A stretch of DNA of 64,000 bases, from assembly GCA_903882745.1 (NCBI GenBank), contig CAIRYG010000003.1, positions 124,001 to 188,000 on the forward strand, in the 5' to 3' direction. Shown piece by piece: positions 6,881-46,416 of the stretch. Position 1 is the stretch's first letter. Every line of letters starts with the position of its first letter. A program made the position numbers and the translations under genes. The notes beneath the pieces were generated by a model. That model searched no databases, had not been told where the DNA came from, and saw only the letters and a program-made list of their open reading frames with translations. Origin of the DNA: an uncultured Gemmatimonadota bacterium. Lineage in GTDB: Bacteria; Gemmatimonadota; Gemmatimonadetes; Gemmatimonadales; Gemmatimonadaceae.

Positions 6881-7046
6881 ACCGAATGTTCCTGCGAGAG
6901 ATGCCAACCAGACATTGTCGCAAGACAACTGTCGTGCCCCGAACGGTCGGCGTGATGAAAGGGGCAAAATCATGATCACCGTGCTCCAGCACCGACACGG
7001 AGTGGTGTGACGGTGCATCGTTACGGCACAGCGTTACGGCACAGCG

Positions 7047-7718
7047 TTACGGCGCTGGCCGGCGGTACAGCCCGACGAGCGTGCCCTTGGCGCGCACATG
7101 CGTTTTCATGGCATCCATCACCGATTCGCGTGTCGGCAGCGTCTGCTGCCCGGCCGCCTGCACATTGATGTTGATATCGAGCGCGTAGAGCTCAAACACA
7201 TAGTGATGCGCCGGGCCGGTGGACGGCGCGGCGGGACCACGGTAGTACGGGCCACTCACACTGAGCTGACGCACCGTTGCGCCGCCACGACCACCGCTAG
7301 CCGCCGCGGGCAGACCAGGGATCGTGAGCGTGGTGCCCTGCGGCAACCCTTCGGGAAGCGCTGTGACCGAACCCGGAATCCCCCACACCATCCAATGCAT
7401 GGTGTCCGTCGTGCCGTCACCGGTCACGGCGTCGGCGTCGTGCACGAGCAGCACGTAGCTGACGACAGAATCCGGCTGGCCACTCCAGGTCAGTGCCGGC
7501 GACACATCGCGTCCGGCCTGCGCATGCTTCTCGGGGATCATTCCGCCATCGCGGAACGCCGACGAGGTGAGCGTCATGATCCGAATCGCGCCGCGGCCAC
7601 CGCCGCCGCTACGTGCGGCGGCCGCTGGCGCCTGCCCCTGCAGACTTGTTGCGGCACTCAGCACCAGTGCCGTCAACGCCACCACACCACGTGTCACAAC
7701 CGTCACAGTCCGTGTCAT
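7047..7718 (-). CDS. YbhB/YbcL-family PEBP-like protein, secreted
   Basis: LTSSAFRDGGMIPEKHAQAGRDVSPALTWSGQPDSVVSYVLLVHDADAV...HHYVFELYALD; start MTRTVTVVTRG at 7718. Confidence 0.85.
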   Translation of the reverse strand: MTRTVTVVTRGVVALTALVLSAATSLQGQAPAAAARSGGGGRGAIRIMTLTSSAFRDGGMIPEKHAQAGRDVSPALTWSGQPDSVVSYVLLVHDADAVTGDGTTDTMHWMVWGIPGSVTALPEGLPQGTTLTIPGLPAAASGGRGGATVRQLSVSGPYYRGPAAPSTGPAHHYVFELYALDININVQAAGQQTLPTRESVMDAMKTHVRAKGTLVGLYRRPAP

Positions 7719-7729
7719 TGTTGGATTCC

Positions 7730-8641
7730 TCACTTGAATGACGACGGCTGGACTTTCCGCCAGGCATCGTAGCGCATGCGGAGCGTCTTCACAGGATTCA
7801 GATTTTCGCCAGCCTTGATCACGTTCGGCCCTCCCTGCTCGGGCTGCGTCACCGTGATGTACATGCTGTAGTTGCCGTTGTTGTGCGCCCAAGTGGAGTC
7901 CGACATCCGCAGCGCGCCTTCGCCCGCCTTATCGCCCTTCTCGGCCATCAGCATATACGCGACGTACGCGGTCCGTCCTTCGCACGGAATCGCCGGCATT
8001 GACCCATCCGGCAACGCGGGGCAGGTGCAGCGGCTGTCGCCGCCGAACTTGTCCGCTGTCTCGAGCGCGGCCATCACACGGTCGGTGATCGCACCGTTGG
8101 TGTTGAGGAATGCGCGCACCGCGTTCGGAATCACTTCACCCGGACGCAGAATGTTGCCCTGAATCGAATAGAAGATCTGCGTGCCCGGCACCTGGCCGTG
8201 AATGTCCTGTGACACGTAGCCATTGGTCAGGCCCGAGTGGCCGGCCATGCGCCCCTTGAGATCGACAATGCCAAACTGCCGCGACTGGTACGCGGGGTCG
8301 GCACTGAGCAGCTCAATAATGCGCTTGGGGTCTGTCCCCTTCTTGAGCTCCTCAAACACCAGCATCTGGTTGGCATGCGTGCCATCAACGCCGGCCTGAC
8401 AGGCGGCAACGCCGAGTCCGGGCACGACCACCGCCTGCACGCCCATCAGAAAGCGATCGTTGTTGTTTACGCAGGTCGCTGACGCGATCACGATGCGGCC
8501 CGTTGCCATGTCCACCGCAATGACCGACCAGGTGGCGTGCGCAAGATTCGGGAGTGCCGCAACAAGGGCGGTGCCGACCACAATGCTCCGGACGGCTCGC
8601 AAGAGAGAGGATATTTTCATTCCCAGAAAGTGTCGAATCAC
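7730..8641 (-). CDS. DUF1028 (Ntn-hydrolase-like) secreted protein; 5' end remodelled by island insertion
   Basis: TWSVIAVDMATGRIVIASATCV...QAGVDGTHANQML; either GTG at 8641 (island-derived, preceded by AAGGAG) or ATG at 8620 (MKISSLL). Confidence 0.8.
   Translation of the reverse strand: MIRHFLGMKISSLLRAVRSIVVGTALVAALPNLAHATWSVIAVDMATGRIVIASATCVNNNDRFLMGVQAVVVPGLGVAACQAGVDGTHANQMLVFEELKKGTDPKRIIELLSADPAYQSRQFGIVDLKGRMAGHSGLTNGYVSQDIHGQVPGTQIFYSIQGNILRPGEVIPNAVRAFLNTNGAITDRVMAALETADKFGGDSRCTCPALPDGSMPAIPCEGRTAYVAYMLMAEKGDKAGEGALRMSDSTWAHNNGNYSMYITVTQPEQGGPNVIKAGENLNPVKTLRMRYDAWRKVQPSSFK
8617..8635. repeat. left copy of 19-bp direct repeat (att-like), tcattcccagaaagtgtcg
   Basis: Identical to 12645-12663; located exactly at the AT-rich/GC-rich boundary. 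Confidence 0.9.
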
Positions 8642-8713
8642 GTAACTCCTTGATATATAATCAGTTAGAGGCTGTTACTTGTAGCTGAATAGTAAATGTG
8701 ATAGTATTTCTAT

Positions 8714-9904
8714 ATGAAAGGTGCACACAGACTGTCACGGATCAAGAACAGCGCACGCACTGAATATGGTGCCTACTTGATTCAATGCACAACCCGATTC
8801 TCGCAGTGCAAACGACTGCAGCTGTCGACGAGCATTTATCCTGACACCAAAAATGCGGCAACGATTATCGCTGAGATGAAGCTGATGTTGAAGGAACTGA
8901 ATCGCGAAGGCAGAGTTGAGCAGCTGCTGCAGCTGCGCGAGCAAAAGGTGAAACTCATTGATTTATACAGCGCATGGAAAAAAGGCAAAGCGCATTTGCT
9001 TCAAGGCAATGAACAGAACAATCTGTTAGCTGAACTAGACGAATATAGAAAAACGAGTGGCTTATCTCTGACGACAACAAAAACAAGTGCGTACGTTATT
9101 CGCAGCTACCAAACTCGCGGCTTTATCCGTGAGACTCATACGCTGAGCGACTTACCGCATATCGTTCAGAAGCTGCAACATCATTTTTCAAAAGCAAAAA
9201 AGCATGACATGTTCAATTACTCGCGTCAGCATTTTCTTGCTTTTCTTCACAAGCACTGTGGTCATTCCAAACAATCGTCGCTGTATTTGTCGGTGCAGAA
9301 CATTGAGAGCTTGCGAATCACGAACAGAAAACCACATCACCCTTTCGCAACACCGCGCGAGTTGTTTGACATTTGCGAGCAGATTACTAAGCTGTCGCGC
9401 ATAACACCTGTCACCAAGCTGCTTTACACCGATTGTCTAAAGATGATGACGCTTCACGCATTTCGACCCAGTGAATTTCTTGAGCTGAAATGGGAGCGTG
9501 ATAAAGCAACTGGGCATCTAAGAATAACGGGCACCAAAACAGCGCAATCAAATCGAGTGGTCCCGTCACTTCTGTATCCAAAGCATTACAATCTGAAAAA
9601 TCTTAGTGAAAGACGAGTCACGCAAAACGCATTAAACAAAGTGCTTCGCAACCTGCATCTACCCCACACCAGCCGAGATTGCCGAAGAACGTTTTCAGTC
9701 TGGGCAGAGAAAGCTGGCATTGAACGAAGTCATATTCTCGCGTATATGGGTCACAAAGGTAGAGAAATGACGGATCTCTATCAGACTCGGGCGATTACAC
9801 GTGATGAACTAGACGTTGATGCGCAGAAGATGAATGCGTTTATTGATGCTGACTTGAAGCGAGTCGAAGTGAAAAAGAAATCTCATTTCGTGCCCACTAC
9901 GTAA
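8714..9904 (+). CDS. tyrosine recombinase/integrase
   Basis: HAFRPSEFLELKWER (Arg I), TGTKTAQSNRVVP (Lys), SRDCRRTFSVWA (box II), YMGHKGREMTDLYQ (H..Y). Confidence 0.88.
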   Translation: MKGAHRLSRIKNSARTEYGAYLIQCTTRFSQCKRLQLSTSIYPDTKNAATIIAEMKLMLKELNREGRVEQLLQLREQKVKLIDLYSAWKKGKAHLLQGNEQNNLLAELDEYRKTSGLSLTTTKTSAYVIRSYQTRGFIRETHTLSDLPHIVQKLQHHFSKAKKHDMFNYSRQHFLAFLHKHCGHSKQSSLYLSVQNIESLRITNRKPHHPFATPRELFDICEQITKLSRITPVTKLLYTDCLKMMTLHAFRPSEFLELKWERDKATGHLRITGTKTAQSNRVVPSLLYPKHYNLKNLSERRVTQNALNKVLRNLHLPHTSRDCRRTFSVWAEKAGIERSHILAYMGHKGREMTDLYQTRAITRDELDVDAQKMNAFIDADLKRVEVKKKSHFVPTT

Positions 9905-9928
9905 GTCGAAATTGACGCACACATACAG

Positions 9929-9957
9929 AAAAGCTCCGATGATGAGTCGGGGCTTTT
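9929..9957 (+). terminator. intrinsic terminator after integrase gene
   Basis: aaaagctccga-tgatgag-tcggggctttt plus T-run; 11-bp stem with one G-U. Confidence 0.8.
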
Positions 9958-9974
9958 TCTATGCACTGCAAGTT

Positions 9975-44363: not shown

Positions 44364-46040
44364 CTACTTGCGCACGAGCGGCTTGAACTTGATGCGGTGC
44401 GGTTGATCGGCATCGGGACCCTTCCGCTTACGCAGGTCCTCGATGTACAGGCCATAGTTTCCTTCGAACCACACCACTTCCGAGTCCCCTTCGAACGCGA
44501 GAATGTGCGTTGCGATTCGGTCGAGGAACCAACGATCGTGCGTGATGACTACCGCACAGCCGGCGAAGTCGAGCAACGCTTCTTCGAGCGCGCGCAGCGT
44601 GTCGACGTCGAGATCGTTCGTTGGTTCGTCGAGCAGCAGGAGGTTGGCCCCTTCCATGAGCGTCTTGGCGAGATGCAACCGGTTGCGTTCGCCGCCGGAG
44701 AGGATGCCGACCTTTTTCTGCTGATCCGAGCCGCGGAAGTTGAAGCTGCTCAAATACGCGCGGCTGTTCAGCTCTTTCTTGCCGACCATGATTTGCTCGA
44801 GCCCGCCGGAAATCTCCTGCCACGCGGAGTTGTCGGGGTTCAGCGTGCGCGACTGATCGACGTAGGCCATCTGCACCGTCTCGCCGATCTTGACCTCGCC
44901 GCTGTCGAGCGGCTCCTTGCCCCCCATGATCTTGAACAGGGTGGTCTTGCCGGCGCCGTTGGGACCGATAATCCCCACGATGCCACCGCGCGGCAACGAG
45001 AAGTTCAGATCGTCAAATAGCAGCTTCTCGCCGAACGCCTTGCCGGCCTTCTTCGCGATCACCACATCGTTGCCCAAGCGCGCTGGGGTGGGGATCACGA
45101 TTTCGTTGGACGCGACCTTGGCCTGCTGCTCTTCGCTCTGCAAATCCTCAAACGCCTGGATACGCGCCTTGCTCTTGGCCTGCCGAGCACGCGGGGCCAT
45201 TCGCACCCACTCGAGCTCACGCTGCAACGTGCGCTGACGGGCGCTCGCCGTCTTCTCCTCAAGCGCCATACGGCTCTGCTTCTGATCGAGCCAGCTGGTG
45301 TAGTTCCCTTCCCACGGGATTCCCTTGCCGCGGTCGAGCTCGAGGATCCACTGCGCCACGTTATCCAAGAAGTAGCGATCGTGCGTGATGGCCACGACGG
45401 TCCCTGGGAACGACGCGAGGAACTGCTCGAGCCAGGCCACGCTCTCGGCGTCCAAGTGGTTCGTGGGTTCGTCGAGCAGGAGCATGTCCGGCTCTTCGAG
45501 CAGCACCTTGCACAACGCCACGCGACGGCGCTCACCACCCGAGAGGTTGGTGACCTCAGCGTCGGCGGGCGGGAGACGCAGGGCGTCCATCGCGATCTCG
45601 ACCTTGCGATCGAGCTCCCACAGATTGTGGTTGTCGATGTATTCCTGAAGCTTCCCCTGCTCTTCCAGTAGGTCGTTCATCTCGTCGTCGCTCATGGGCT
45701 CGGCGAACTTCATCGAGACCTCATTGAAGCGGTCGAGCTTGGCGCGCTGGACGGCGACGGCCTCGTCGACGTTCCCCTTTACGGTTTTGTTGGGGTCGAG
45801 CTGTGGCTCTTGGGGGAGGTACCCGATGCGCGTGCCTTTATGCGCCCAGGCTTCCCCCTGAAATTCCTGATCGACACCGGCCATGATGCGCAGGAGCGAC
45901 GATTTGCCGGCGCCGTTGGGGCCGAGCACGCCGATCTTGGCGCCTGGGTAGAAGGAGAGCCAAATATCGTCCAGGATGATGCGCTGGGGCGGAATCACCT
46001 TGCGCAACGCCTTCATGACGTAGATAAACTGCGGAGCCAT
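44364..46040 (-). CDS. ettA: ABC-F energy-dependent translational throttle protein EttA
   Basis: [52 protein letters not shown]; two ABC domains, [27 protein letters not shown]. Confidence 0.95.
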
Positions 46041-46416
46041 ACAACTGCCTCTCTTGCTCTCTATGAGAGCGCGCGCGGGGACGCCAAATAATGCGTTGAC
46101 AGAGGGATAAGTCCCATAACGTATCCCATAATTTTGGATTGTTGCGTTCGTCGTGGCCGCTCCCCGGGTGTGCGAGTGCAGCCACACCGAAAGTTAGCGG
46201 TCCGTGACCGGTGGTGGGAGGCAATCCGGTGGGTATTCACGGGCTTTTTTTCGCTCGCCCGGACCACCATTCCCGATAGCGAACGAGGCAAGGGGTAGGG
46301 CCATCTTCACGCTGTTGTGTCACCCGCACCCTGCGGTGCCGTGATCCTGCCTATATGTTCGGAGACGGCCACGACACGCCAGCACCAATCCACGCATTCC
46401 CCCACCGGACCGCCAC

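Follow-up and report, generated by a model that had tools for sequence, protein, structure and literature searches.

In an uncultured Gemmatimonadota bacterium, an AT-rich island lies exactly at the beginning of a gene encoding a DUF1028 protein. The locus raises the question of what becomes of a host gene when a mobile element parts it from its native upstream region, and whether the island end that takes the place of that region can keep the gene expressible. The window analysed is a stretch of 64,000 nucleotides (contig CAIRYG010000003.1, positions 124,001 to 188,000), to which all coordinates refer.

A small integrated island and its empty site

The island is bounded by a perfect 19-bp direct repeat (TCATTCCCAGAAAGTGTCG) with copies at 8617-8635 and 12645-12663. 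The distance between them, and the length of the AT-rich island, is 4,028 bp, and no further copy was found in the 3.06-Mb genome, even with up to three mismatches. GC content is 0.39-0.51 inside the repeats and about 0.63-0.66 outside, and the GC edges match the repeats. The left repeat spans the 5' end of the DUF1028 gene, native start codon included, and the integrase gene, which begins at 8714, 79 bp from attL, adjoins this repeat. The features of the locus are as follows:

7730-8620, minus strand: DUF1028 gene from its native ATG (PF06267, E 1.8e-22; orthologues)
8617-8635: attL, left 19-bp repeat, holding the native start codon of DUF1028 (CAT, 8618-8620)
8636-8713: integrase-proximal island end, the 78-bp divergent intergenic region between the integrase gene and DUF1028, with AT-rich TATATAT at 8653-8659 (possible promoter role)
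8639-8641, minus strand: island-encoded in-frame GTG, a possible new start that would add MIRHFLG (shuffle test)
8646-8651, minus strand: island-encoded Shine-Dalgarno (SD) sequence AAGGAG, separated from the GTG by 4 nt and from the native ATG by 25 nt
8714-9904, plus strand: tyrosine recombinase (integrase), 396 aa (phrog_1, E 2.5e-12; PF00589, E 3.1e-4, below gathering score; related integrases)
9975-10160, minus strand: 61-aa protein, 93% identical to one in the island of genome G008
10153-10374, minus strand: small HTH protein, probable excisionase (HTH_17, E 0.0067, and excise, E 0.06, both below cut-off; homologue in the G008 island)
10501-11193, minus strand: 230-aa protein, 35% identical to a G008 island protein
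11606-12286, minus strand: serine recombinase of the resolvase/invertase type, 226 aa (PF00239, E 1.7e-24; phrog_125, E 8.2e-39)
12335-12363, minus strand: near-consensus sigma-70-type promoter, TTGACA-17-TATTAT (11/12), before the leftward operon (consensus match only; the region yielded 9 such sites, with 6.7 expected)
12645-12663: attR, right 19-bp repeat (repeat search, genome-wide copy search)
12664-12783, minus strand: displaced native 5' flank of DUF1028, matching the empty-site genome G014 and now with the island on one side and the M20 peptidase gene (12784) on the other

An island-free version of the site is present in a genome of the same genus (G014, locus L004), whose DUF1028 orthologue is 98% identical. 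The site reads ...CCGTGCCACCC GTG CGA CAC TTT CTG GGG ATG AAA..., its upstream sequence passing via CGACACTTTCTGGG into the DUF1028 ATG, and over 150 bp upstream 139/150 positions are identical to the right flank of the window island. The empty site of this close relative equals the joined flanks of the window island, which establishes the insertion and fixes its edges to within the repeat. The element is a small integrated mobile island of the tyrosine-integrase, site-specific type, for which both integration site and empty site are demonstrated; its placement at the 5' end of the DUF1028 gene, proposed in a first-pass annotation, is borne out by the perfect repeats and by G014.

In the integrase, Arg251, Lys275, Arg324, His347 and Tyr356 do not vary among the four rows of an alignment and, as assigned by eye, fit the expected catalytic set by position. 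Judging from the same alignment, the box II His seems to be Arg (residue 321) in all four integrases. The likely start of the excisionase-like gene is the ATG at 10345-10347, preceded by AGGAG. No match to the 230-aa protein was found in phages, and its single-sequence structure model (pLDDT 39) is not interpretable. Searches of Pfam, PHROGs and NCBIfam recognised no relaxase, type IV secretion, mobilisation or conjugation family among the island proteins. Identity with a known phage or plasmid was rejected, the integrase being without match in phage and plasmid collections or viral contigs. A tRNA or structured RNA was likewise discarded as the target: the only tRNA of the window lies at 29.6 kb, and no Rfam match occurs at 7000-14000.

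The native start and the island-side start of DUF1028

The five orthologues whose N-terminus can be aligned (L004, L005, L006, L008, L010) have an ATG that matches 8618-8620 in position or is no more than three codons away, and signal-peptide-like sequence comes after it. The N-terminus of the DUF1028 protein is of the same kind (MKISSLLRAVRSIVVGTALVAALPNLAHA), and codons 5' of the native ATG show no conservation among orthologues. The native start is the ATG at 8618-8620, inside the repeat and intact after insertion. The complete native reading frame consequently survives integration, and a start codon supplied by the island is not needed. The first-pass annotation had held that the island brings a replacement SD, start codon and N-terminus, and had suggested a comparison with the N-termini and upstream regions of island-free relatives. 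Set beside these relatives, the first part stands, since the site is empty in G014, the native flank is SD-less, and the island has replaced the upstream region and supplied an SD; the start codon and N-terminus, however, are not replaced.

The junctions themselves read as that annotation gave them. On the minus strand, AAGGAG (8651-8646) is followed by TTAC, GTG (8641-8639) ATT CGA CAC TTT CTG GGA ATG (8620-8618) AAA, in frame and without a stop, and the displaced flank at the right junction (GTG CGA CAC TTT CTG GGA ATG) is likewise in frame. An upstream in-frame GTG is thus found at both the empty site and the island junction, an SD only with the island copy. The open frame by itself says less, since the repeat contains no stop in this frame and a GTG, though one without an SD, is present in the displaced native flank too. 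When the 78-bp left end was subjected to dinucleotide shuffling, 0.125% of shuffles (0.00125) gave a strong SD followed at 4-9 nt by an in-frame start, and 0.7% did so when any SD 4-mer was accepted.

Use of the GTG is plausible, since no other start is suitably spaced from the island SD. Initiation there would lengthen the signal peptide by seven residues, not replace the N-terminus, and the island end is best read, on sequence grounds, as a putative new leader with an optional seven-residue extension. The integrase start on the other side of the same region (8700-8716 in the window; also the integrase start in L054) has TAGTATT 5 bp before its ATG and no SD; it resembles the presumed leaderless host genes described below, whereas the outward side carries the SD.

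The simplest alternative is an ordinary gene-start insertion, after which translation still begins at the native ATG and the SD and GTG happen to be there for other reasons, for instance as parts of integrase binding sites or as the opening of a 13-codon leader ORF in the island circle. It draws on the intact native ATG and coding sequence, on the part of the conserved native upstream motif (CACTTTC-like) that lies inside the repeat and so is kept, and on the circle, in which this SD and GTG would start a short reading frame that stops 13 codons later. Against it, native upstream elements that lie outside the repeat are lost, and the combination of SD and in-frame start is rare in the shuffles. 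Further evidence on this alternative comes from other islands.

Related islands at gene starts and gene ends

A search for related integrases across 179 genomes of the family and 395 of the phylum yielded a small clade. Among the genomes searched, DUF1028 occurs as an island site only once, and the island group was found here only in Gemmatimonadota. Integrases 38-39% identical to that of the window, where the frame is long enough, stand at the start codon of a DUF4177-like gene in G006, G008, G009 and G015; shorter integrase fragments in three genomes are due to contigs ending there. The gene (58 aa) was named from its sequence, not from a database match. Two contig ends overlap by 89 bp in G006 and by 109 bp in G008, giving joined islands of 7,522 bp and 7,043 bp, both flanked by 12-bp repeats (TATTCTTTCATA) that contain the start codon and coincide with the GC edges; the left end is the same in G009 and G015. 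The window island has gene content in common with these DUF4177-site islands. The G008 island (L057, 9514-11238) also encodes a cargo protein of 574 aa, its start lipoprotein-like and its repeats apparently Ig-like, which stands between the 61-aa ORF and the HTH gene and is absent from the window island; the G006 island is similar to it in GC.

More distant integrases (31-32%) are found at the start codon of ettA in G009 and G135. In the G009 ettA island the right junction is on another contig, and both junctions share the core TATGGCACCGCA. A possible remnant of such an island end lies upstream of ettA (ATG 46038-46040) in the genome studied here: the stretch 46041-46135 on the minus strand, common to G014, has TTATGGGATACGTTATGGGAC repeats and a GAGAGG SD before the ettA ATG and resembles the arm sequences of the G009 and G135 ettA islands, with no integrase nearby.

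Island-side starts were preceded, at a distance of 4-9 nt, by an SD-like match of 4-6 bases in 9/9 cases, native ones in 5/31 (Fisher p 7e-6, a value that is too optimistic because the nine starts represent three target genes and the four DUF4177 islands are close kin). Two of the nine are the inferred ettA remnants of this genome (G000) and G014, which have arm-like TTATGGGA repeats and no integrase. Counted by target gene, the island end bears an SD at 3/3 (DUF1028, DUF4177-like, ettA). On the native side, the 11 island-free DUF4177-like genes have a TAGTATT/TACTATT-type sequence about 8-10 nt before the ATG and no SD, the SD is mostly absent from eight island-free ettA genes, and the native flanks displaced to attR in the G006, G008 and G009 islands are SD-less. 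An SD has been reported in 22% of genes in the class Gemmatimonadetes (PMC10783764), which makes its presence at every island end notable. A count restricted to 20 unambiguous starts from the window and its relatives agrees with this figure (20% with a strict SD, 0% in shifted background). In the same small sample the TANNNT test for leaderless promoters showed no enrichment; we infer leaderless starts from the conserved TAGTATT/TACTATT sequence before the DUF4177-like ATG.

The sequences demonstrate that the frame is intact and that the island end bears an SD at each of three genes. At DUF4177-like and ettA genes the SD lies 6-9 nt before the host ATG, and this recurrence at two other host genes makes the DUF1028 arrangement more than coincidence. 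That the SD and GTG are incidental we therefore hold to be unlikely, although it is the most serious of the alternatives.

Gene starts are not the only targets of this integrase group. The two integrases closest to that of the window (54%, 50%) sit in the 3' ends of protein genes (G090 and G009 contig C21): in G090 an ABC permease receives a homologous replacement C-terminus of similar sequence, and in G009 C21 the C-terminus of an aminotransferase is replaced by a short unrelated end. The integrases of G003 and G119 are located close to the 3' end of a short gene whose product terminates in YKKLVR; in G029 a peroxiredoxin-like frame is interrupted. The G009 C21 and G029 cases indicate that restoration is not universal; where restoration sequences are seen, they are at the integrase-proximal end. 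Users of 5' and 3' ends fall in the same clade of the integrase tree, so the choice of target switches between gene ends. A larger island of the same integrase clade in G090 (L162, about 4.5-16.1 kb), ending before mnmG, contains genes of sugar-nucleotide and aminotransferase type, resembling those of surface polysaccharide clusters.

How the interrupted gene may remain expressible

The reading we favour, and consider reasonably probable, is that these islands integrate into the ends of protein genes in such a way that the integrase-proximal island end keeps the interrupted gene expressible. The tyrosine integrase, presumably active and capable of excision, would join a short sequence of the island circle to an identical one at the end of a conserved protein gene, and the integrase-proximal end would become the new neighbour of that gene. 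Where the site is at a 5' end, this island end would substitute an SD leader, presumably together with a promoter, for the native SD-less flank; where it is at a 3' end, the island end can furnish a new coding sequence for the C-terminus. At DUF1028 it offers TATATAT, AAGGAG and GTG, which the cell may use, with transcription presumably coming from the island end. Translation after integration would probably start at the island SD and GTG, adding MIRHFLG, with the native ATG as the alternative.

The opposite outcome, that the island silences or impairs DUF1028 by parting it from its promoter and restores nothing, is improbable in our view. It is true that all native sequence upstream of the repeat has been moved away by 4 kb and that a scan of the left island end (8636-8713) found no outward sigma-70-type consensus promoter. 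The frame, however, is uninterrupted. Compared with the empty-site orthologue it shows codon differences of which 20 are synonymous and 6 non-synonymous, a ratio that is weak evidence because it mostly reflects selection before insertion. An exchange of promoters, the displaced native one driving the leftward island operon (both on the minus strand, about 360 bp apart) and the island's outward signals, those of the operon in the circle, driving DUF1028, is hardly credible and was judged unnecessary, since the near-consensus promoter that belongs to the serine recombinase operon itself (12363-12335) makes an external one superfluous.

Insertion at a 5' end is rarer than at tRNA 3' ends, as the first-pass annotation remarked, but both it and the maintenance of the interrupted gene by the island end have good precedents (SXT at prfC, dusA islands; PMC8409611). 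For IMEVchUSA3, lacZ fusions showed that the interrupted dusA gene receives expression signals from the island end, and a new N-terminus takes the place of the old one, with 61% identity over the first 35 residues (PMC8409611). The dusA-specific elements (IMEVchUSA3, PMC8409611; integrase family PMC4482086) are, like the window island, tyrosine-integrase islands inserted into a conserved protein gene at its 5' end; the likeness is one of arrangement, and phylum and target differ. Unlike them, the window island retains the native ATG, adds at most seven residues and belongs to a group whose target genes are natively SD-less. SXT is described in PMC2654960 as a conjugative element of about 100 kb, and the SXT/R391 elements at prfC thus contrast with an island of 4 kb in which no conjugation gene was recognised. 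Islands that restore 3' ends likewise combine site-specific integration with gene restoration, as does the close relative in G090 at its ABC permease, but the window element, unlike islands at tRNA genes or 3' ends, acts at a start codon.

Compared with the 5'-end-restoring class (SXT/prfC, IMEVchUSA3/dusA), the window island shares integration at a 5' end, its repeat spanning the native start codon, and differs in that all native codons are kept, with an extension of at most seven. By analogy it appears to work like these elements; membership of the class is not claimed, since no transfer genes were recognised and the N-terminus is not replaced. The trick itself is known from islands of enterobacteria and Vibrio; the window island is a variant specific to its lineage and would add to it the conversion from SD-less to SD-led starts in a low-SD phylum. 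A literature search on this combination in Gemmatimonadota, or with leaderless genes, found nothing relevant.

A broader and rather doubtful proposal, which we advance tentatively, is that this Gemmatimonadota integrase lineage has repeatedly adapted to SD-less, probably leaderless start codons, each island end converting its target to SD-led translation and remnants persisting as leaders, as suspected at ettA here. If true, integration switches how a host gene is translated. The islands would extend 5'-end gene restoration, at three target genes, from Gammaproteobacteria to a phylum with mostly SD-less genes. Native and island-side leaders of the same gene stand side by side in one genome, a natural experiment on a changed mode of translation initiation, and integrases that use gene-end sites of 12-19 bp may become tools for the poorly tractable Gemmatimonadota.
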